The notes below the pieces were generated by a model, which saw only the letters and a program-made list of their open reading frames with translations, searched no databases and had not been told where the DNA came from. A program made the position numbers and the translations under genes. Below, one piece after another: positions 4,316 through 59,852 of a stretch of 64,000 bases of DNA. This DNA comes from Morchella semilibera (lineage: Eukaryota > Ascomycota > Pezizomycetes > Pezizales > Morchellaceae). Where the stretch lies: NCBI GenBank assembly GCA_009192285.1, contig WBVU01000004.1, positions 3,246,001-3,310,000 on the forward strand, given 5' to 3'. The number at the start of each line of letters is the position of its first letter. The first letter of the stretch is position 1.

Positions 4316-7300
4316 ATGTTCGCACATGATGATCCTTCACCCAAGCAAGCCGAGCCGGAGAAAAACGCCGACTTCCTTTCTTTGAAGCCCTTAGATATGT
4401 TCAAAGCCATGGGCACGTTAAGTTCTCAGAATCCGCATGATCTGGGAGCTGTCTTGATGAGTGAGCCGATTCTTCTAAAAATCCCTTGTCTAAGATGAAC
4501 CCAGGACTCTTCGAGCGCCTTAGTGCACACAGGTGCTCGAACACAAGCCAACACTGCCCCAATAAGAGCTTGTGATACCATTTGTGACTCTAACTTGAAG
4601 CTAGAGTTATAGAATATTTTCACTAACACCCAAAGCAACACAGTAAGCCACGAGTACAGTGATTCGACCTCGTCTGGGATGAATTCATATGACGAGATAG
4701 ACCACAAACCTGATAATTTAATAATTCCCCCTCAAGCTAGCTCAGGCGGAGACTTCCTAACCCTAAGGAGTACCAATTCCCCCATTACCCTGACTTGTAA
4801 ACCCGACCTTCCATCGGCGCAAAGTACCGAGCGCTCCCTCACCTACCAAAGTGAAGAAAGATACCCAACTAGTGCAACCCCTATGTCTCACGTGGAATCC
4901 AAGATCCCAGTCATGGCCGACCCATCCCTAGGAACACTTAGTAGTCTTTCCGACATTAGCCAAAACGAGGCACAAAGCTTGGTATGTCCTTCCTAGTATA
5001 GTGAATCGAGTCCTGTATTCGATCAGAAAGAGATATCAATCTCTTCCAGCGTACTGAAATGTGGATCTGAAGCTAAGATACCCCCCCCTCATCTCTCACC
5101 CATAGGCTCAGGTACCGCTGCTTGGAAAGCTTTCTGGCTCTGAATTAAGTGCTGGTTTAAATATAAAGAAGACATTTATTTCTTTGGGAGATAGTGGCCC
5201 GGTGCTAGGAGGCCCAGGATACTCTTTCTCTACAGAATCTCGATCCGCTGCTATCACTCAAAAAGCTAGTAAAGGCAGCGATAACGGGAGGGCGGCTTCA
5301 AAAGATATTGCGACCGAAACTCCCAATTTGAATCGGTCCGAACTTAGCCACGATTTATCGCCTAAGAAATCACTACAAAAAGGAAATCCGACGGAAAGTC
5401 TTATTCAATCAAGCAAAACGCTAGATACCGATATCAATAACAAAATTTCCTCTAAAGGCTGCCTCAATACTGAAGGGGGGTCTCCCATATCGATGTTTAC
5501 AACATTAACAGCTGGTGATTCTTCCGGGAAATCTTTGGAGCTTAATGAAGACTCGGATCACAGTTCCCGATTTTCGAAGAGAGGTGAAGATAAAAATGAA
5601 GAAAATGAGGGGTTTCAAGATTCAGGAAGTCTCAAAGATATTGGGCTCGTTAGCCACAAGCCATATACAAAACGCATAACTGCTAGGCGTCGAATACGCC
5701 GAGGTGAATTTGTAAAATGGTTAGTCAAACTTTCATTAATGTCTTACGGTATTTAAGTTAATGAATACTAGGTGCGAAGGGAAAACTAAAGAAATACAAA
5801 TCGAGACAGTAGCTGAGCGCCATCAACAAGATGAGGAAAAGATGTCTGCTAGAGCAATGATTACGTCTCACAAATTTATCATCTCAGACCCTCGTGAATA
5901 TCAAATGGAGCTTTTCGAGATTGCCAAAGAACGAAATACCATTGCAGTACTCGATACAGGCTCCGGAAAAACCCTCATTGCTTGTCTTTTAATCCGATAC
6001 ATGGTCGATCAAGAGCTTGAATCTCGCATGCTTGGCCATCACCGCCGTGTTAGTCTTTTTCTCGTCGACTGCGTTACACTTGTTTTTCAGCAGGCAGCAG
6101 TTTTGAATTGCAATATCGATGCCAAGGTTGGCAAGTATTGTGGGAATATGGGAGTTGATCTCTGGGAAAAGGATATCTGGGGTAAAATTCTTGATGACGA
6201 GCAGGTTATTGTAATGACGGCAGATGTGCTTTATAATTGTCTTACACATGCGTTTATCAAGATGGAAGATATTAATCTTCTTTGTTTTGATGAGGCACAC
6301 CATGCAAAGAAAAGGCATGTATATGCACGGATAATTAAGGACTTTTATATACCTGAGTCTGAGGATAAGAGACCGAAAATCTTCGGGATGACGGCTTCAC
6401 CAGTTGATGCACGGGTTGATGTTATTCAAGCCGCCTTGTAAGTGCTAAAATCTTAAATGCCTAGTTTTCTTTTTGTCTAATTCCTTAAATCAAAACAGAG
6501 AGCTCGAAGAACTCCTCCACAGCAAAATCACAACTGCAAGTGATCTGATGCTACTTCAAAGCTCTGTAATCCGCCCTAGAGAGGAGGTTGCGGTATACAG
6601 CAAGCTTCAAGCCCCATTTCAAACACAGCTCTGCTCAAAGCTTTATAGCAAATACAGTAAATGTGGATCCTTTGGAAAGATATTCGCTTTCTCCAAGCAA
6701 TGTGCGTCTGAGCTTGGCCCCTGGTGTGCAGATCAAGTATGGAAATTTGCATTATCCGAACAGGAATACCGCAAGCTCAAACGTAAAGAGGAACGCAATT
6801 CGAATAACCAAACTAGCCAAAAGGGCCTCGATCTCCTCGAAGAGGATATCCAACTTCTCAGAGAAGCAAAATTGGATGTTCAGAACCATGTCTTTGACCC
6901 CCCAGATCCAGAAACCGATGATCTAAGCTCGAAGGTTGTCCTACTACATCGGTTCCTTAAGCGTGTATATGCCGAGGAAAACAACAACAAGTGTATTATC
7001 TTTGTCAACAGACGGTACACTGCTCGTGTCCTGGCTGCACTTTTAAAAGAAATTGGGAGCCAGCATATGAAGCTTGGTATTCTTATTGGGTCAAGTTCGG
7101 GTGGTGCTGGCGATGAAAACGTTACGTTCAGACAGCAGATGGTAACCGTGAGTCAGTTCAGGAGAGGCAAGTTGAATTGCCTCATCGCTACTTCAGTGGC
7201 AGAGGAGGGCTTGGATATACCAGACTGCAGTTTGATTATCAGGTTAGTGAAATGATTTTGGCCCAAATTAGTGATTTGTCTCAGTATAGGAGTTAACCCC

Positions 7301-10300
7301 CATAATAGATTTGATCTATATACCACCATGATTCAGTATATTCAGTCTAGAGGGCGGGCACGCCATTCGAGATCTCGTTATATCCATATGTTGGAAGCTG
7401 GTAATATAGAGCACAGGAGAATTCTCGGCGATGTACGAAGTGCTGAAGGGATCATGCGAAAGTTTTGTCAAAGCCTCCCGGAAGATAGGCTACTAAACGA
7501 AGCAACCAATAGCGGACATCTTGTTGATGAAGGCGATCGTACTTACATTGAGCCAGAAAGCGGTGCTAAGCTGACCCTTTCGTCTGCAATGCAGATTGTG
7601 GGACATTATCTTGGTAGTTTGGTGAGTTCTAAAAATATCTCTCAACTGATGATCATACTGAGAATAATATATATTAGCCTCATGATGGAGAGGATTTATC
7701 TTCGGCTATCTATAAAGTCCGTAATCTTGGGTTTAGGTCATATATCTGTGAACTATTTCTCCCTGCTGGATCACCGATCACTTGTGTTGAGGGGACAGTC
7801 ATGGCTACCAAAGCTGGAGCAAAAAGAGCTGCTGCATTCGAAGCTTGCATACAACTACGCGCCAAAAAATATCTGGATTCTCATTTATTACCCAAATATA
7901 GAGTGAAGGATATCCCGAAGATGGCCAATGCACATTTGGCCCTGGATTCTAACAAGACTCAAAATTATGTGTCGAAAGAGAAACCGGCATTCTGGACTAT
8001 CAAAGATAGCACACCTCCCCAACAAGCTTGGATAACTGTGTTTCTTCTATCAAATCAAGATGAGATTAATGAAAGGCTTTTGCCAATAGCCATTGCTACA
8101 AGGGAAAGGCTTCCTAACATCCCAAGATTTCCCATATACTCCGATAGGGGTGCACGTTCAGATGTTATCTCCTTACGTCTGAATAGGCCTTTGGATGTAA
8201 CCGTCGAAAAGCTTGACCTGCTTAGCAGGTTTACAATACGATTATTCTATGATTTATTCAATAAACTCTTCGAGCAAGACGATTCGACGTTTCCATATTG
8301 GATCGCACCATGCAAAAGCGGAGAGTGGCATGAAGATACCCTAGCTGATGATGTGCTTGACTGGGAAATGATGAAGTGCATTATGTCCTCCCTCGAGTTG
8401 GAGTGGAATAGCGAGACCCCGATCAATGATTTCATGGACAGATTTCTTATAGATAAAAGGCAACGAAGCAGGCGTTTCATTGTCTATGATTGTGATCCTA
8501 CACTAAGTCCCAAGGATCCTGTTCCAGTGCAAATGTCTAATATCTCTATCTCTGATATTCTTGATTACTCATACAATGCTGGGAAAAAGGGTGCTGTGAA
8601 GTGGAAATATATAAAATGGGAGATCCCAAAAACAGAGCCTGTACTAGTAGCTGACCGTTTGCTCCATCGGCTAAATTACTTGGATCCACCAAGCGAGAAG
8701 GATGCTAATACGAGTACCGAGGCTTGGATATGCCCTTCAGCTTTTCAGATCTCAATGGTATGGGTTTATAATCCTTTACAAACCCCCAGACCCTCATTAA
8801 CATGCTTATACTAGATCCCGTGTCATATTATAAATATGGCCATGATATTTCCGGCTATCAGCACCAGAATCGATGCATATCTTCATGCTTGGGATGTTTG
8901 CAAGCTGCTGGGAATGGAAGATATGGATCTTAGGCTGGCCTTAGAGGCTATTACAAAAGACTCCGATAATTCTCACGAACACAATAAGGATCAAGTCAAT
9001 TTAAGAAAGGGAATGGGTAATAACTATGAGCGATTGGAGTTTTTAGGAGATTGTTTCTTGAAAGTGGTATGTTAGTGCTTACTTTTATGTTAACATGCAG
9101 TTCTATATTAATCTTTGGATTTTGAAAAGGCATCTTCCATCAGTCTTTTCGCTGAAAATCACGAGAATGATGAATATCAGTTGCACGTTAAACGTATGTT
9201 ACTTGTTTGCAACCAACATCTATTTGACAAAGCAAAACAGATAAATCTACCGGCTTATATCCAAACCGAGGGATTCTCCCGGCGCTGGTGGTATCCAGCT
9301 ACCATGAAACAGATCCTAGGGAAGGGTATCGGGAAGGAGATTATTAAGCCGGGTGGTTTACATAGGCTTGCCGACAAATCTATTTCTGATGTATGCGAGG
9401 CCTTGATAGGAGCAGCAGTCATCGACAAAGGTCTTGATGGTGCTACCAAAATGGTGACTGCAATCTTACAAACACCAGAGCACCAACAGAAAGAATGGGC
9501 CGATTACTACAAAGGTTATATAAAGCCTGGATATCAGACTGCCTTGCCCTCTGCTTCACAAATAAAGTTAGCAAGCGACATTGAGAAACAGGTTGGGTAT
9601 AAATTTCAATCCCCAAAGTTACTTGTGTCTGCATTCACACATTCGAGCAATCCTTACTCTTGGGAGAAAGTGCCATGCTACCAAAGACTTGAGTTTTTGG
9701 GAGATTCCCTACTGGATCTGGTCTGTGTACGATACATCTTCGATAAATACCCAGAAGCAGATCCTCAATGGTTGACCGAGCATAAGGTAGGCCCACCCTA
9801 CATTGTTATATTCCCGACGTACTAATCAAGTAAAGATGGCTATGGTTTCAAATAAGTTTCTCGGTGCTGTTTCCGTCGTAATGGGCTTTCATCGAAAGCT
9901 TAAAAGGGTTGGCCAACATTTAGATATCGCCATTAGAGACTACGCGATAGAAATCATAGAGGCCAAAGATAAATCAAACGGAGCCGTTGATTTCTGGACT
10001 TCTGTAAGCCCACCGCCAAAAGCACTCCCTGACATTCTCGAGGCTTTCATCGGCGCCTTATTTGTCGACTCTGAGTTCAACTACCAGATAGTTGAGAAAT
10101 TTGTTTCTGATTTCATTCTTCCATACTTTGTTGATATGACTGTTTATGATAGTAGGAGTCTCTTAATCGGCTTTACTCCAATATCAAAGTGCTGACAGAC
10201 TTGCAGACTTTGCCGGTCAGCACCCAACCACCTTCCTAACCCAACGCATGACCGGCTTGGGTTGTACCAATTGGGGCTACGAAAGTGAACAAATTCAAAC

Positions 10301-16659: not shown

Positions 16660-18157
16660 CCCAGGGTGTCGGAAAGTGATGCATATCCAAGTTGCAACCG
16701 TGACGACCTCAATTTCTCAACAACTTGAACCACGAACCAAGTCAATATTTTGTCATGCCACCTTGGGCTTTAATTACAGCTTGTATCCGATATGGCATTG
16801 TCCTAATTAAAGAGTGCAACCTTGTCTTCCCAATATTCTCCCATGCTTCTACTATTGCAGCCTTTAACTTTTCCACCTCTTTGATCCTGCCATACCTTCG
16901 TCCCAAGTACCTTTCCATATCATTCCATATTTGCTCGATAAGGTTGAGATCTGGTGACTGCGCAGGCCAGTCAAACACATCAAGGTTGTTTTTTTCTCGG
17001 CAGCTAAATAGAGATTAGTGTATTTCTATTATTAAAAGACATTGGCACTAACTCACCTTATAGCAAACCGCTTATGCCCAGGAGCATTATCCTCCACTAC
17101 CCGAACCCATCCATATATTTCACACATTTTATGCCAAAATGGAATTAATGCCGGGTCAAGGATTGTTGTCGTATATGAGATAGAGTCAATAGATGATTTG
17201 GGAGGTACAAAAAATATATCAGATTTGTGTTCTCCACAAAAAGCCCCCCATACCATAATAGTTTTTCTTCCAGACTCCCACCGCTCGTCAACACAATCAG
17301 GATTGTTTTGCTTCTTCTTCTCCATCTCTTCGTATTACTAGTGGACGGTAACCGAATCCTGCTGTTGAAAACTGTGATTCATCAGTCCATACAACACGTA
17401 ACCAGTCTTCAAATCTCCAGTGTTGATGTGCAATAGCCCATGCAAGTCGTCTAGGCTTTGAGGATTCTCGTAGACCAGGTTTTCTTCGTGGTTTTCGCTT
17501 GTGAAATCCGAGTTTTTTGGCAGTTTTTTGAACATTACGAACTGCACATTTTAAGCCTAGTTCATCACGAATATTTTCCCAAGGTAATCGCCGAGTTCGT
17601 TTATCGGTCGTAATAAAATCCTCTAGCTCTTTCAGTTGTTCTGGTTCGTGGAAAAATGTAGGCCGACCGCTGCGTTTACGATTACTTGGTGTTCCTGTCT
17701 CCTTCATCCTCTTATAGATGCGCCCACACGTGGAAACATCAATATCCAACTCCAGTTTTTCCACAATTGTTTTAAAAGTAAATTTTGCAACCTCATGAAG
17801 GACAGCAATGCGGATCCGGTCATCTCTTGTGGTTTCCACCCGACCATGTTCAAGAACCTTTTGAGCTTTTTTGGTATAGGCTCTCGTCTTGTACCTTGTA
17901 TTGTTGTTCATTTTCTCAAATCTTTCCCGCTCTAAAAGAAGTCAGATCTATTTTCAGTCCATACATACTAGTAGATTACTACTCACTTCTATCACTTTGC
18001 GTTCCCTTTACCCGCATTTTCACAATTCTGTTGTTGAAAGTTGCCAGTGTGTTGTGTTGCGTTGCGTCCGTTTGCTCAGGCTCTCGTAGGATTTGGTCAT
18101 GGTTGCGACCTCATACCTTGCAGCCTCAAAATGTGCATTACTTTCCGACACCCTGGG
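16660..18157. mobile_element. Tc1/mariner DNA transposon, nearly whole
   Basis: This 1498-bp element has matching terminal inverted repeats starting CCCAGGGTGTCGGAAAGT, with ATGCA one base further in. A TA target duplication flanks it at 16658-16659 and 18158-18159. It carries one transposase gene on the minus strand. The right flanking TA belongs to a TACATGTA octamer, and rejoining the flanks suggests insertion at the TA of that palindrome. The high terminal-repeat identity and nearly open gene suggest recent insertion. Confidence 0.93.
16742..17911 (-). CDS. Tc1/mariner transposase (DD34E), one frame break
   Basis: ATG at 17911. An N-terminal helix-turn-helix region with a GRP motif (about residues 40-85) is followed by the catalytic core: VVWTDESQFS (first Asp), VVEDNAPGHK (second Asp), and SPDLNLIEQIW, where the Glu lies 34 residues after the second Asp, so DD34E. 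A canonical GT-AG intron of about 59 nt (gtgagt to tttag, roughly 16995-17056) lies between the second Asp and Glu and splices in frame. The first half (17911 to about 17300) and the second (from about 17325 down) are in different frames, separated at a GAA-GAA-GAA-G run. One base change in that run is the only break seen, so it could be a sequencing slip or a recent inactivation. Confidence 0.85.
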
Positions 18158-49154: not shown

Positions 49155-49179
49155 AAAATCTCGACCATGTCGAGATTTT
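49155..49179 (-). terminator. perfect hairpin at the stop of the H4 variant
   Basis: Two perfectly complementary 11-base arms, AAAATCTCGAC and GTCGAGATTTT, are separated by three bases. On the transcribed strand the hairpin begins at the last base of the TAA stop. It could act in 3'-end formation or stability. It does not match the animal histone stem-loop. Confidence 0.5.
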
Positions 49180-50162
49180 TACTTCCTGCCCTTGGGCTTG
49201 TAGGTGTCAGGATCAAATCCTGGGTTAGGGTTAGTAACAGCAACCAAAGAAGAGGTGGGCTAGGGGCGACAAACCGTAGATGGGTCTTCCAATCTGGTTA
49301 TGGACAAATACTAGTTTTAGTAAACCGAGGTTTCCAACACCTGTAAAAACTAGGTAAAAGTAAACATACCCTCTTGAGAGCGAAAATGACCTGACCCATA
49401 ATATTAGCCAAAACCTTCCGAAATCCAAACTAGGGTAAGAGGAGTAAAGTGCAGGCAGATTACTTACATCAGTAACAGTGATAGTCTTGCGAGAGGAGTG
49501 CTCTAGGTAGACAACACAGTCCTGGAGTATCTAAAGGCCAACTTGTCAACCAGTGCCCAAACCACTTAAAACGGTAAAATTTCTAATGCTCATCCAGCAA
49601 ACACGTAGCACCGCATATTCCCACAAACCCCCCCCCAAACCACTGCAGGAAGGAAGGGAAGATACATACCTTCTTTAAATGGGTCACAAGGGCGTGCCTT
49701 GCCTCCTCATAGATCTGGGCAGAGATGCGTTTGACACCTCCACGTCTAGCCAGACGACTATTCCCCCACAACCCGACCGTCAGTATCTCTCCCAAGTAAC
49801 AAAAACAGGCAAAGCTTAAACATCATCCCCTTCTTGGGATGAGCCCGTAAAAGCTAGACATACCGAATATCGGGCTTAGCTACTCAAACGATTAGTCCAC
49901 TGCCTCAAACATAACTGTCACTTGCCGCCGTTATTGCCTCCATTCCCGCCAAACAAGCCAAGCATATGGGTGAGTGAGCCGTACTAATCCCTCTCACCGT
50001 ATCCTTCATGACCTTCCTATGCCTCTTCGCGAGCGCCTTTCCAAGGCCCTTCCCGCCAACACCGACTCTTCCTCCTCCTTTCCCCAGACCCTGGCCAAGG
50101 GTGCCTCGGTTTGCCGAGCTGCTGGAGGCCGCTGCATTGGGCCGGCGCGGAGTGGGTGGCAT
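49179..50162 (-). CDS. divergent histone H4 variant, seven exons
   Basis: Exons 49985-50162, 49864-49879, 49670-49757, 49468-49530, 49370-49390, 49275-49293 and 49179-49219 join with all phases correct to 141 aa (canonical H4 is 103). The H4 fold is plain: AKRHRKVMKDTVRGITKPDI, RRLARRGGVKRISAQIYEEA, YLEHSSRKTITVTDV, IFALKRIGRPIYGF. Differences: the N-terminal tail is about 37 residues longer, Pro/Ser-rich, with two GLGKG-type blocks; the dimer/tetramer helices are strongly changed (HALVTHLKKILQDCVV); and a C-terminal extension, DPDTYKPKGRK, replaces GG. Exon 2 is a 16-nt microexon. The consistent splicing argues for a working gene. Confidence 0.85.
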
Positions 50163-50699: not shown

Positions 50700-52088
50700 C
50701 TAGTTCAACTCCAGTTCAGTGATGAAGGTTGCTTCGTAGAATGCATTTCCTTCCTCTTCAATGATCTCATCGCCGATTTTAATTTTCATAGTCATTTTCT
50801 GGTGGTACTATGATTGGACGACTGTTAGCTTTGGTTTCGGCGTTAGCCTTGGACTCGACATACCTGGTACATGTACGGCTTTGTCCCCGCTACGTTCCCA
50901 GCGATTTTCTTAATGATAGCTGGCACCTCCGCCATGATATCAACACGATCAATCCTCTTACCCAACTTTCCCTCAAGCAGGGCCTCAACAGGCTTCCCAT
51001 CCTTTGTTTGGGCGTTCCACACAAACTTTACGGCAGTAGGTTCGGGTAATTCTACATCATCCAACTGCGAAGCTACGTGCTCACACTCTCCCTTTGTTCC
51101 GGCAGCGACAAGCTCACCATCCTTGGAGAGACCAATGATATTAACAGTTGTTGTACCATAGGAAGGAGGAGTGGTAAACTCCATCATGATAGCGGAGTAA
51201 GTGGGACCCTGGAAGTTGACGAAGTTCCATTTGGCAGCTGTAACATTCTTGTCAATCCTTTCCTAAAACGGGTTTGCCAGGGGGAGGAGCATACCTGCGT
51301 GGTGCGGCTTCATCGCTTGCAATGCCATAACGTGCATGGCCTTCCCCTTGAAGTTGATCTTCTCATCTCCGACCTTGATGAACCCTTCCAGCGTGTTTCT
51401 GGGCCAAAAGACATGCCTAATCGCTCCCCATGGGTTTTCTGGGTCGGTACCAAAGTTTGTGCGCCCATCCTTTCCAATCTTGAACCCGGGTGTAGTTTGA
51501 GTGACAACAAGATCAATGAAGATGGTTGGGTCGACCGCGCTCTTGATGGCGTAAGATTTTCCATCATCGCTGAGAATGACAGCGATATTGTCGGCATAGA
51601 ATGAGTGTTTTGTGTCATCGAAGAAGTCGGTGCTTGTAAGAGGCTTGCTGGACCAGGTAATACGGCCGTCTGGGTGAAAGATCTTGGTGGACACCTGGGC
51701 AGTTACATGGATGTTGCTATTGCTAATCAGCAAAGGCCAGAACAAAGGTGATAGGGATACTTACGCAACATTAGAGTAGATAATTTGTACAAGTCCCATG
51801 TGCCCACTCTCAGCTTCAAGGTAGAAAGTCTGAGTCTCGGCACTTGTTGTATCAAGACCATGCCATCTCAAATCGTCACGAGTGACCTCATAGTTAGGGT
51901 TTTCTGGTTCTTGAAGAGCAACAGACTGGATGGCAGAGGATCCATAGATTGGCTCAGCAGTACCAAGGGCTGCCGAAATTCTGGTTTTTTAAGAGAGAAA
52001 ACAATAAGCTGTCTGAAGGTGCAGGGTACGATAGCTGACACAGAGTAACTTACGATGCTTGAGCAGTGCTTTTAACCCAGGAGAACAT
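50700..52088 (-). CDS. SVF1: survival factor Svf1
   Basis: Svf1 protects against oxidative and cold stress and acts in sphingolipid (ceramide) transport; the fold is a tandem lipocalin. ATG 52088 ([12 protein letters not shown]). Motifs: [120 protein letters not shown] and AGTKPYMYQ, ending [10 protein letters not shown] at TAG 50700-50702. At least five exons splice in frame. The last exon starts after a GTATGT intron at YMYQ. The single coding TACATGTA of the window falls here (near 50870). Confidence 0.94.
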
Positions 52089-53620: not shown

Positions 53621-56600
53621 CTACTTGCCGTGCATCGGGCTCCCTAAAGACCGCTCCTTCACCTCAGTTACCTCAACTAATGCCTTAAGTCCACTATTCT
53701 CTTTCCTCAACCTCCTAAATTCATGATTAGTCTCTACACTACATCGTCACCTGGAGAGGAATAAAACGTACATATTCTCCCTCTTCAACTTCCCCTGCTC
53801 CACCCGAACTTCCTGTAAAAGCTTCAAGATCTCGGCCTCCCCTCGCCCTTGCTTTAGTGCCGCGCTTATCTTAACCAGCTCATTATTGAAGGTCTCAAAC
53901 ATCACGTCGTTCTCATTTAAGCAATCGTTCCACACCTCCACAAGCCCCTCTAATTCCTTGTTCTTCTTTTCGAGGGTAATCTCAAACTTATTCCTCTCAA
54001 TCTCTAGCTTATTCGTTACCGTCTCTAGTTTATTGGTTAAGTCATTTATATCTGGAATTCGAGACTCGAGGTGCGAGATTCGCGAGGTGAGCTCTTTGAT
54101 AGCAGCCGAGTGAGCAGTACCACGGCCAGAAAGACGAGAAGCCATGCTCAGCTCTTCGCCTATTTTGTCAATTTCGCGCTGTAACCCACTCTCGACCCGA
54201 GTGATGGCCTGCTTTTCTGATAGTAGCCGTTCACGAAGCTTTTGCGTGCTCTGCATCTTAAGACGTTGGGGACCAGGACTCGAGGTAGCTCCGGTGTTAC
54301 CGGTGGTTCCACGACGAACTGAAACCTCGCTGCTACGGTCACTAAGGCGGGAATTGGAGCGGCCTGGGGTTGAAGGTGTGTGTGGCGGTGTGTTTGCTCT
54401 CTGTGGCGGGCTCACCGTAGTACGACTGCGATTACGGATGCCATTGCTGCGAGTTAGACGAAGAGGATCGGGGTGGTCTGGTGTTCTAGGAGTGAGGCGG
54501 AGGGGGTCTGGGTGGTCAGGTGTGTGTCTGTTGATGCGGAGGGGATCTGGATGGTCCGGCGTATGCCTATTAACACGGAGAGGGTCCGGATGGTCCGGAG
54601 TATTCCTATTAGGGCGAAGGGGATCTGGATGATCTGGTGTGTGGCGGTTGATGCGCAAAGGGTCTGGATGGTCTGGGGTTTGCCTATTGATTCGAAGGGG
54701 GTCGGGATGGTCTGGTGTACTTGGGTGTCTGCTGTGACGAAGGAGGGGGTCAGGATGATCTGGCGTACTTGGATGTCTACTATGACGAAGTGGGTCTGGG
54801 TGATCAGGTGTGCCTGTGTGTCTGTTTAAGCGGAGCGGATCAGGGTGGTCCGGTGTGCCTGTATGCCTGTTAAGACGAAGAGGATCTGGGTGGTCTGGTG
54901 TATTATATCGGTGGAAACGGAGAGGGTCTGGATGGTCTGGTGTGTTACGACTGAAGCGGAGAGGTTCGGGATCGGGGAAACCGAAGAGGCTCAGGGTCAG
55001 GGAAGCGTAAAGGTTCAGGATTAGGTAAGTGAAGAGGATCTGGGTGGTCGGGAGTTGAGCTCATGGGCGGCAGAATAGGCTGGTAATCAGGGTGGTTGGT
55101 GAGATCACTCAGGGAGCTTCTACGCTTCCTTCGAGGAACATCGCCGGGGGTACTGGGAACTCCTAGATTCGGGGGTTCTACGGGGAGTGGCTTTTCTGGA
55201 GACGGGTGTGGGGGAGGAATGACTGACGAAAGAGGCTGTAGAGGTGGTAGCGTAGAAGACATTGGGTTGCTGAAAGCATTCATGAGATTTGGGCTGTCTC
55301 GTGAGGATGGCCTGCCCGCTGGTTGTACATAAGTTCTAGCATCATAATCTGTCGATTTGCTTCTCGCTAGATGACCCTTCTGTGTATCTTGTCCTAGCCT
55401 GCTACTCTTGCTGAGCGTTCTCCACACACTACTCTTACCATCAGCACTGTACTGATCCCTCGTTGGGTTATGGCTAAGCCCAAGCCTCTTCCGCAGCGAT
55501 GTGGTTGAATAAGAAACACTGGTGACAGATTTATGTCGTTTAACGAACGCCCCATTTCCGTTAACGGATTCGCCATTATTGTTATTCATCGTATCTGACG
55601 CAGTGCTTCCATCAGTTGGCCCTCCTAGATAACAAAAAGAATCATGGTTACCATTAAAAAGACTATCCGCCTCCTCGACCAACCTATCCACGAGTGGCAT
55701 AAAATCGAATGGGTCTGAATCCTCAAAGACCAGTAACTCGGTGAATGCTTTTGTGAGCAGTCCTTTATCATCAGCGTCTTGAACTCGGCCCTGCATAGCT
55801 CTAAGTAATATGACTATGGTTCTGAAAGCTCTTTTGTTTTGGGGGGTCCAGTCTAACACGAATATCTTGAAGAAATCCTCAAAATCACCAGGATATAGCT
55901 CTTCGCTTTTGCACTGTAGCTCAGCCAGGGCCTTCTCCGCAATGACAGGACCCATTCCATCTTTCCATTCTCCATGAAGAAAGCGGCGGAATGCTTCAAA
56001 TACGACATCAACACCGAGGTCTATCTCTATTTTAACACTCTTAGGGTTGTGAACCATGTCCTCGAGAAACTCCTCTACTGCGATATTGTCAACTCCATGC
56101 ATTTCACGGAGCGGGTCAAGGTCGGCATCGGCAGAGGAGAACATTCGAAGAGTAACAATAAAGGCCTCAAATGTCTCTTCCAACCTCTTCAATGGGCTTT
56201 CGTTCGCCATTGTGATGCTCACATCCGTTTTTTCCTCGTAGTCGTTGATATCCTCAAGACTCCAGTTTTCAACACCCATGACGGTTTGTCGTTTCTGGAG
56301 CATGCTCGGCGTGCGTTCCACTTTTGGAGGAAGCATTTGAGACTGAGTTCGGTCCAGGAGAACAGGTCGCTTGTTAGGAGAACCAGGAACAGCATTGGCA
56401 GAATTATTATTGCTATTGTTGCTGCTTCCCAAAAATGAACTGAATAGCTTTACCGGGCTCGGTGGCCTAAGCCTACTGAATCTACTCTCGCCGTCAAATG
56501 GAACTCCTGAAGCTCTCAGCAGCTTTCTGTTTGCGGACATCAACGCCGATGTCAATGGTGGATGTTGCGGGAGCGAGTGGAGTCTGAGCAGCGATGACAC

Positions 56601-58674
56601 ACGCTTGGTAAAAACCGCCAGCAACTCCTCCGGAGGTACTGTATCAGTTGAGGAATAATCGTTCCAACTTCTGAACTCAACCCGCACTTTATTCCCTGGG
56701 ATTGCCTCGACAGACACAGCAATATCAACTCCCTGTTTCCCTATTCTTTCAGCAAGCTCCTTGCCCCACTTTCCGCTCCCCCCGCCCCCCCACCGTCGTC
56801 GATATAGACAACTACGCCCCCTTTCTCTTCTCAGCAGTGTAGCGGTCCTCACTACCCCAAACGCAGGACCAAAACCCCAAACCTTCTGATTTGATTTCTC
56901 GAAGGCCTATCACACCTTTCCCGTTAGTAGAGACTCTACGCTCTAGTTTGGCTTTCACGAGATCTTCGGCAAATTTAGCGGCGCGCCCTTCGTATGCATT
57001 CAAAAGCCTCATTCGTCGTAGTCCCATGCCTCCTGCACGCACATCCCAACTGTCATTTAAGTCTTTTGCTAAAGTCATCCAAACAATATCTCCACCATCA
57101 CTCTCTGCAATCCTCACATCCGAAAGATCCATCCAACCTGCGAATTGCAGGTCGCAGCCTGACCCTTCTCGCTTAGTTCCGCTTCCGATTGCAGCTACAG
57201 CCCCACCGGGCCTATCAACCTCTGCCATAATTGCACGAGCCTGCATAGAATTCGGTTTTGGTCGGCGTAGAATAACCAGGCGGTCTGCAAAGAGTAGCAT
57301 AGTCGATGGAATCGCATCTGCGTTCTGGTCATTGAAAGGTGGAAGGACGTCAAGAAAATCGATCCCAGTTATGAGACGTCCGGAAGGCTTCAATGTGGAA
57401 GGCCAGGAAACTATTATTGATTGGAGGCGCTTTGTTGTTTGAGAACGCTCATCAATATCAGATGATTGAAGTGAACAGATTTCGGTAATTATTTCCCGAG
57501 CTTCCATTAGTATGATCAAAGATGGGTGGTCAAGTGGGATGGAGTTAAGCATGTTGTCTATAAGGAGTGCGTATCGCGGAAGCCTTTGGACGGGCTCAAT
57601 AATAAGGGACCGAAGCTTTTGTTCGCCAGTTTGTTGAACTCTTTTCGAGAAGGATGAGTGCTTGTCCTTTGAAAACTTCCCGAGTAATTGTGCGAACTCG
57701 GGAGATGCTCGTAGATATTCCGCATAACAATCCTTAAATTCGGGAAAGTGCTTTAAGCAAACCCTTGCTACCTCTTCAATTCCACCCAGCTCTATCTCCA
57801 CTAAAAACCTTGTATTAACCTCCAAAATTTTGTCGAGACATGGGGGAAATAAGGTATCTAAATCCCTAGCACTCGGAAATCCTGATTCGACCTTCTTCTG
57901 TGTAAAGCGTGTGCGCAAAGGTATCACGAGGTTTTCGATTAGGTCCCGTAGCTTTGCAACATAGTTGGCCTCCGTGTATCGTAGCTCCTCCAATTCACGT
58001 TCCAAAGCCGCAGCATTGATTTTTAATTGGGGCCTTGCGGACGCAGGCCTGCTTGCAGCGCGCTTTAGTTTAGTAAAAGGTAAGTGAGTCGGGTCTCCAA
58101 AATGGCCGAGAAGCTCCTCAATTCCATCGCTCATGGCCTCTTCCGTCACTTCCTCGCCATTTGGAGATCTGATGACCAGATCTACATCCAGCCAGCTGAC
58201 AAAGCGCTCGCTCAGGGCCGGCATAATATCCCCCACTAATCCGTCCATCTCCACCTCTTTAAGCCGCGCCGCGAGATCTCCGGCATGCATCTCATCAAAC
58301 GCGACGGCCTGGCCCTCGCCATTCTGTGGCAAGTTTGATTTGGAGCGAAGTATTTTCTCTTTGATTGCTTTGGGAAGCTCCGAGAAGTACTTGAGGACTG
58401 CGATTGCGAGTCCACGGTATACCTCGACTGATTGTTTTGGTGGTGGGAGGTGGTTGACAGCCGCATAGAGGGGGGAGGAAGGAGAGAGGATTAGTTTTGG
58501 GTAAGACTGGAGACCAGCGCAAGTGAGGATATGAGCTTCGATCCTAGAGGTCGCAGCAGAGGAGGTTAATGAGAAGGGATTATAGAAGACGAGGACATGG
58601 CCAAGGACGGGATCGGAGGTGCAGTAGGGCGTGCAATGGGAGAGGTGCGGCGGGGGAGATGAGAGTGAAGCCAT
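53621..58674 (-). CDS. Rho guanine-nucleotide exchange factor (DH-PH) with long repeat-bearing C-terminus
   Basis: ATG 58674. A helical N-terminal part of about 220 residues precedes the DH domain: ELEELRYTEANYVAKLRDLI, then FPEFKDCYAEYL and the hallmark IIEPVQRLPRYALLIDNML. A PH-like region with LLFADRLVILRR follows, then a helical region weakly like RhoGAP (DVVFEAFRRFLHGEW, NKRAFRTIVILLRAMQ), a Ser-rich stretch, 13 TPDHPDPL units, and a C-terminal coiled coil ending KERSLGSPMHGK after a 54-nt intron. The frame is broken by single bases at three G/C runs: 56817-56821, 56778-56783 (both seem one base short) and 54974-54977 (one base long). Downstream frames stay open for hundreds of codons, so error is likelier than decay. 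Confidence 0.85.
54461..55058 (-). repeat. coding tandem repeat, 13 TPDHPDPL units
   Basis: The octapeptide TPDHPDPL occurs 13 times, usually followed by Arg and a variable spacer of 4-7 residues (INRH, LNRHTG, HSRHPS), so the DNA period is mostly 39 nt with some longer. A related PEPLRF pair lies near the 5' end. DNA copies differ mainly at third codon positions. Confidence 0.92.
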
Positions 58675-59852
58675 TGGGGCTTGTGGGTTTGAGGATGAAC
58701 CCCGAATTCAGGATGAAGAGGACTAGGGGGGCCTAGGGACCGGGAAAGTTGTTGGTGTACCCCAGGTTTGTTGTTGTTGTGGAAGCACTATTGTGCAGGA
58801 AGAACGTGAGTTTGAGGGGGGGGGGGGGATTCTGATGACGCAGGCCAGGCAGGAGGAGATGTAGACCTAGACACCGTTCTCTGTCTGTCTGGTCTGGTCT
58901 GGTCCACCAAGAAGCTGTTCGCCTGTCATCCAGTTTGCCCTAGGGGATTGTTTGACATAACCTTTTCCTATTTACATGTAGGTATTCTAAATAGGTATGC
59001 GGGTTCGTGAGGAGGAGGGCAAGGGAGGGCTCTTCCACAGTTCTGAGGATGTGATGCAGCAGCCAGATGCTGAGCTGTGCTCTGCCTTGCCTCCTTCCTC
59101 TCGGCTGCCCTCCACCGCTTGCCCCCGCCAATAACCAATCCAATGTGACCTTTCCCCACCAAATCAGCTTCTGCATTGATCAATTGCAAGGGACAACATC
59201 TCAACAATAGCCAAGTGAGTAGTCGTGGGGAAACAAACACTCTAACCCCTACATGATACTTATCTCCAGTCTTGTTTTTTTTTTTTTTTCCCCCACCCCT
59301 TCACTTTTTTGTATTGGAGAAACAAGCTTAAGTCCCGATCCATCTAAACCCCGCAGGAAGCGATTCAGCTCTAGAATACATGTATGTATCATGGTTCAGC
59401 TGGCTGTTCCCGGTTGATTGTCCCCTGCAGGTCAATGACAATCCCTGTCACAACCGGCTCCGCAAGTGGTGACCGGCGTGGTCGTCGAGGTGTGTAGAGA
59501 GTATGTAGAGTAGAGAGTATGTAGAATCTAGACGCCGAGACATTCCCAAGCTCTACTCTTGTCAGCTAGCGTGATGTGAGTGATAGGTTGTGATGAAGAG
59601 GTTCTGCTCCGTCTGTCAGAGGCAGAAAAGGAAAGTATTAACGATGTGCATGGCTGAAATTCATAGGCCTATAGGTACATGTAAAAAACAGGTGCCTACT
59701 AACACGGAGGGTAAATCCTAGGATTCTTGATGCACGATGGTTGAACGGGATTTCCTTAAAGTAATAAATAGAAGTAGCCTATTCAAATAATACAAAATAT
59801 AACTATAAAAAAACATTAAATGCACAGGGAATCCAGGGCTCAGTGTCCATAA
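58675..59852. other. intergenic, no gene recognised
   Basis: Contains a G run at 58818-58829, T runs near 59274-59289, TACATGTA near 58973, 59378 and 59676, and a tandem AGAGTATGTAG-type repeat at 59496-59524. The RhoGEF promoter is at the left end. Confidence 0.5.

Follow-up and report, generated by a model that had tools for sequence, protein, structure and literature searches.

A divergent, seven-exon histone H4 gene of Morchella semilibera that is very probably an orthologue of the fungal variant H4E

A 64,000-nt stretch of the Morchella semilibera genome (hereafter the window; contig C20, positions 3246001-3310000, in a genome of 56.8 Mb on 23 contigs) carries an interrupted gene for an H4-like protein with long tails. 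This raises the question whether the gene encodes a true and possibly new H4 variant or is a decaying copy, and what such a protein might do in chromatin. In the splice model, the gene occupies 984 nt of genomic DNA from ATG to stop on the minus strand (Table 1), within exactly the limits that had been given in the earlier note, where the strand was not named. The six introns are all of the GT-AG type with phases 1, 2, 0, 0, 0 and 1, and the joined exons form a coding sequence (CDS) of 426 nt without internal stop that encodes 141 residues, so that the earlier observation of a frame kept across seven exons stands.

Table 1. The variant gene, its exons according to the splice model and the adjacent svf1 domains, in window coordinates
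Feature	Position	Strand	Length (nt)	Remarks
svf1, domain span	50843-51760	-		PF08622 and PF17187 (Svf1 N- and C-terminal domains)
Putative H4E gene, ATG to stop	49179-50162	-	984	141 residues; basis: splice model, database protein P0001, H4 match
Exon 1	49985-50162	-	178	long N-tail, basic patch AKRHRK, ends at RGI
Exon 2	49864-49879	-	16	TKPDIR; phase-1 intron before, phase-2 intron after
Exon 3	49670-49757	-	88	RLARRGGVKRISAQIYEEARHALVTHLKK
Exon 4	49468-49530	-	63	phase-0 introns on both sides
Exon 5	49370-49390	-	21	VIFALKR
Exon 6	49275-49293	-	19	phase-1 intron after
Exon 7	49179-49219	-	41 (stop included)	FDPDTYKPKGRK

The H4 core fold is evident from matches to solved H4 chains, with E-values as good as 1.8e-37, and from 54 of 85 core residues (K16 to F100) that are identical to canonical H4 from this genome. 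With the helix limits that we assumed for this comparison, the identity is distributed unevenly: alpha-1 (10/11) and loop 1 (7/7) are nearly the same as in canonical H4, while 13 of 28 residues agree in alpha-2, 4/6 in loop 2 and 6/11 in alpha-3. The earlier description of strongly altered middle helices thus applies to alpha-2 and in part to alpha-3, but not to alpha-1 and loop 1. Both tails are longer and divergent, as is typical of H4E. The N-tail exceeds that of canonical H4 by 29 residues (ungapped offset) and not by about 37 as previously estimated, whereas the 11-residue basic extension said to replace the GG end is indeed present (DPDTYKPKGRK, net charge +2). According to the ungapped list of differences from the genome's own canonical H4, R3, K5, K59 and K77 are lost, and K8, K12, K16, K20, K31, K44, K79 and K91 are kept. 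An AlphaFold model of the database protein P0001, calculated from an alignment of 30 sequences, places helices at residues 61-69, 72-75, 78-106 and 113-123, but with a mean pLDDT of 61.9 and a pTM of 0.35 it is weak and adds little. Pfam returned CENP-T_C below the cut-off and TAF just above it, and no H4E model was among the matches to the morel protein. As a separate observation, contig C22 holds a strong CENP-T_C match (2177753-2178134, 80.8 bits), which is probably CENP-T itself and not an H4.

Searched against its own genome (E<=10), the variant protein gave 11 matches, which comprise the window locus, canonical H4 genes on contigs C4 and C14 and, at 26-27% identity, two weak ones on C2 and C19; a second copy of the variant was not found among the best-scoring candidates. 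The canonical genes encode 103 residues ending in GG and are interrupted at CDS positions 10 and 148 (C4) or 10, 85 and 148 (C14), none of which coincides exactly with an intron position of the variant.

Is the gene alive? In a full-length protein search (7821 matches among 7976 candidates scored, the best 120 listed, mostly proteins holding canonical H4), the best match was P0001, to which all 141 residues align with T21I as the single difference. This rules out an accidental series of open frames, and the splice model consequently stands on more than hand splicing. The longest contig behind P0001 measures 960 nt and is therefore shorter than the genomic gene span, so its source cannot be the unspliced gene; we infer that the contig derives from spliced RNA. 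The prediction that the gene is probably expressed gains from this record. Decay, which had been named as the alternative, is barely credible given the intact reading frame and splice sites, the transcript-like P0001 and the intact, full-length relatives in other Morchella species with core identities of 91-94%; no point in favour of a pseudogene emerged from these data, and we reject it.

A Neurospora H4 variant, hH4v, was reportedly known from Hays et al. in 2002, well before a survey of such proteins appeared in 2024. In that survey, Flipphi et al. (PMC10878826) described H4E in Pezizomycotina, including hheA of Aspergillus nidulans, and named Neurospora crassa hH4v, which is also mentioned in PMC6703697, as its orthologue. 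The morel gene is almost certainly an orthologue of H4E and thus an old H4 duplicate; its likeness to hH4v follows, by description, from this orthology. It is therefore not something new, since it belongs to a family that has already been surveyed (PMC10878826). Among the matches listed for Morchella literature, no title dealt with a morel histone variant.

The assignment is carried by the gene structure. The survey's H4E model contains a 16-nt exon that is preceded by a phase-1 and followed by a phase-2 intron, an 88-nt exon and then phase-0 introns; a 63-nt exon is reported as well, and an extra phase-1 intron 19 nt past the last phase-0 intron is described for early-diverging classes and Lecanoromycetes (PMC10878826). 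The morel gene has the same series of 16, 88, 63, 21 and 19 nt with the same phases, its 16-nt and 88-nt exons corresponding to H4E exons 3 and 4, and from the 16-nt exon onward it agrees with the H4E of A. nidulans and other Pezizomycotina in intron positions and phases. Downstream of the 88-nt exon, a figure legend of the survey lists exons of 60, 18 and 21 nt; we read the 60-nt and 18-nt exons as probably being the 63-nt exon as it is split in Eurotiomycetes, and the 21-nt exon agrees with the morel gene. The Eurotiomycetes insertion is absent from the morel gene. A departure that speaks against our reading is the lack of intron i1, whose site in other H4E genes (PMC10878826) lies within morel exon 1, so that the first two H4E exons are fused here. 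As further points of comparison with the published proteins (PMC10878826), the long N- and C-tails, the conserved fold and the svf1 neighbourhood are shared, whereas K16, retained in the morel protein, is Arg in A. nidulans.

The neighbourhood points in the same direction. In Aspergilli, hheA lies between nudA and svf1, and the survey reports the order nudA - hheA - svf1 for Eurotiomycetes and Dothideomycetes only (PMC10878826). In the morel, the svf1 domains are adjacent to the variant, upstream and on the same strand. Two pieces of a nudA-like dynein heavy chain, the sole match of this kind found in the genome, lie on the same side as svf1 at a distance of about 19 kb from the variant, past the window end (C20:3314760-3316015). 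On the opposite side, Trs85 is the first recognised gene among 20 open frames scanned. Unlike in Aspergillus, svf1 and the dynein gene thus do not flank the variant, and the cluster is kept in Pezizomycetes in a rearranged form, with svf1 adjacent and dynein retained loosely.

As proteins with canonical H4 dominated the full-length search, the query was narrowed to residues 84-141, which yielded 40 matches among 42 candidates (E<=0.001). Relatives were found both in two named morels and in other genera, and we take the named genera to belong to Pezizomycotina. The nearest named proteins among the matches listed, both full-length, are from Morchella sextelata (83% identity, core 80/85) and M. 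importuna (87%, core 77/85), which supports a true H4 variant. All 40 relatives lack Y88 and carry the pattern V[I/L][F/H]..L...G.P[I/L]YGF, the next residue being D in 38 of them, G in one and E in one. This pattern was drawn up after 30 of the 40 had been viewed aligned (10 were omitted for brevity), while pattern and core identities were counted in all 40; since the query was the C-terminal half, the common pattern is partly a selection effect. The C-terminal extensions range from 6 to 28 residues, and their net charges (K+R minus D+E) lie between +6 and -4; a basic extension is therefore no feature of the family.

The core of 35 of the 40 relatives is nearer to the morel variant than to the morel canonical H4, with four ties and one lower; without three Morchella-like proteins, the count is 32 of 37, again with four ties and one lower. 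These identities lean toward a grouping with other H4Es, for which the survey obtained no stable phylogeny (PMC10878826). They also bear on the possibility that the gene is a recent, fast-diverging duplicate of the morel canonical H4 that arose independently of H4E. The first intron of the variant (49984-49880, equivalent to canonical CDS position 91) lies 6 nt from the C14 intron at position 85, both being phase 1; the proximity may reflect chance, sliding or shared origin and would suit such a duplicate. The remaining intron positions, however, match H4E and not the canonical genes, and together with the svf1 and dynein neighbourhood and the core identities to other genera they make an independent duplication most improbable, and we reject it.

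Within Morchella, the window protein and the database proteins P0001-P0003 differ at 0 to 8 of 85 core positions, 1 to 8 of 45 N-tail positions and 0 or 1 of 11 positions of the C-extension, counted over the alignment columns of the window protein. This would fit a constrained core and C-extension. In some pairs, core and N-tail differ to a similar degree per residue (5/85 versus 4/45; 8/85 versus 7/45), so that selection is only loosely indicated.

For the function of H4E we draw on A. nidulans (PMC10878826), where the protein is nuclear and a GFP fusion co-localises with DAPI and a linker histone marker. It contacts H3 in BiFC, which attests to H3 contact and is no proof of nucleosome entry. 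Its transcript rises on nitrogen starvation at 37 C, and the protein is low. H4E cannot replace canonical H4.1, and expression from the H4.1 promoter changes growth mildly, while no phenotype was detected on either deletion or overexpression: conidiation, conidial viability, survival of UV and H2O2 and the sexual cycle are unchanged in the hheA deletion. In conidiophores and ascospores, the GFP fusion under the native promoter gave no visible signal. The roles in meiosis and spores that had been envisaged for the morel protein thus receive no support from A. nidulans (PMC10878826), but are conceivable in morels.

By analogy, we favour with moderate confidence the reading that the morel orthologue forms H3-H4E dimers that enter few nucleosomes and dock H2A-H2B in an altered way. 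Such dimers would replace H3-H4 in a small, condition-dependent set of nucleosomes and would do so outside bulk S-phase deposition. In alpha-3 and at the C-terminal end, H4Es have several changes in common (F or H for Y88, T96P, and D plus an extension for GG), and these could alter docking to H2A-H2B and, in turn, the stability of these nucleosomes. This reading draws on the H4E-like exon series, on svf1 and the nearby dynein match, on the relatives recovered and their cores, and on the function data from A. nidulans. It is weakened by the silent deletion and overexpression and the unproven nucleosome presence in that species (PMC10878826), by the missing i1, by the Morchella pairs whose core differs about as much as the N-tail, and by the weak AlphaFold model.

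Two other roles have to be weighed against it. H4E might act mainly off the nucleosome, as a soluble or chaperone-bound H3 dimer that stores or buffers H3 or competes for chaperones and rarely enters chromatin. The low, starvation-induced protein of A. nidulans, with its H3 contact and no proven place in the nucleosome, would suit this role, as would the position of the shared changes in the H4 C-terminus, to which Asf1 and the H2A docking domain bind; the overlap of the GFP fusion with DAPI staining and the linker histone marker (PMC10878826) and the loop-1 residues and basic patch AKRHRK kept in the morel protein argue for chromatin instead, and we regard this role as rather unlikely. A little less probable still is that H4E is an old duplicate which is retained yet nearly dispensable, tolerated at a low level in a weak or redundant role. 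Such a protein could be removed or overproduced without phenotype, as in A. nidulans, and could be lost, as reported for Penicillium, Ophiostomatales and Botryosphaeriales (PMC10878826); it would hardly be expected to leave intact relatives with a conserved core in several classes, or an 11-residue C-extension that is almost invariant among Morchella sequences.

Returning to H3-H4E dimers in nucleosomes, a more specific and distinctly speculative proposal, which we hold to be improbable as it stands, is that H4E marks a nucleosome which is independent of replication, specific to starvation or development and prone to shed H2A-H2B through weak docking (Y88F, PIYGFD, C-extension), while the K8/K12/K16/K20 tail of the morel protein is still read. 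If so, the H4-tail machinery would continue to recognise morel H4E.

H4 variants are rare, and because H4E has persisted in a large part of a fungal subphylum, every orthologue helps to fix its age and its constraints. The morel copy makes a small contribution, confined to gene structure and synteny: H4E can do without intron i1, and the svf1 neighbourhood, with dynein more loosely, extends to Pezizomycetes, which favours a single origin before this class split off. Rare H4 variants of other lineages are known by description, namely trypanosome H4V, human H4G, a testis H4 of Oikopleura and a bracovirus H4, the last of which likewise has an extended N-tail, of 38 residues (PMC10878826).

Further genes were noted elsewhere in the window. 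Successive open frames at 5740-9825 on the plus strand encode the DEAD helicase, helicase C and RNase III domains of a Dicer-like gene, and an open frame at 17297-17941 on the minus strand, with a Tc3-type transposase helix-turn-helix domain, is probably a fragment of a Tc1/mariner element. On the minus strand, 53747-58707 holds a Bud3-like RhoGEF gene and, after it, a frame in which a TPDHPDPLR-like motif is repeated many times.
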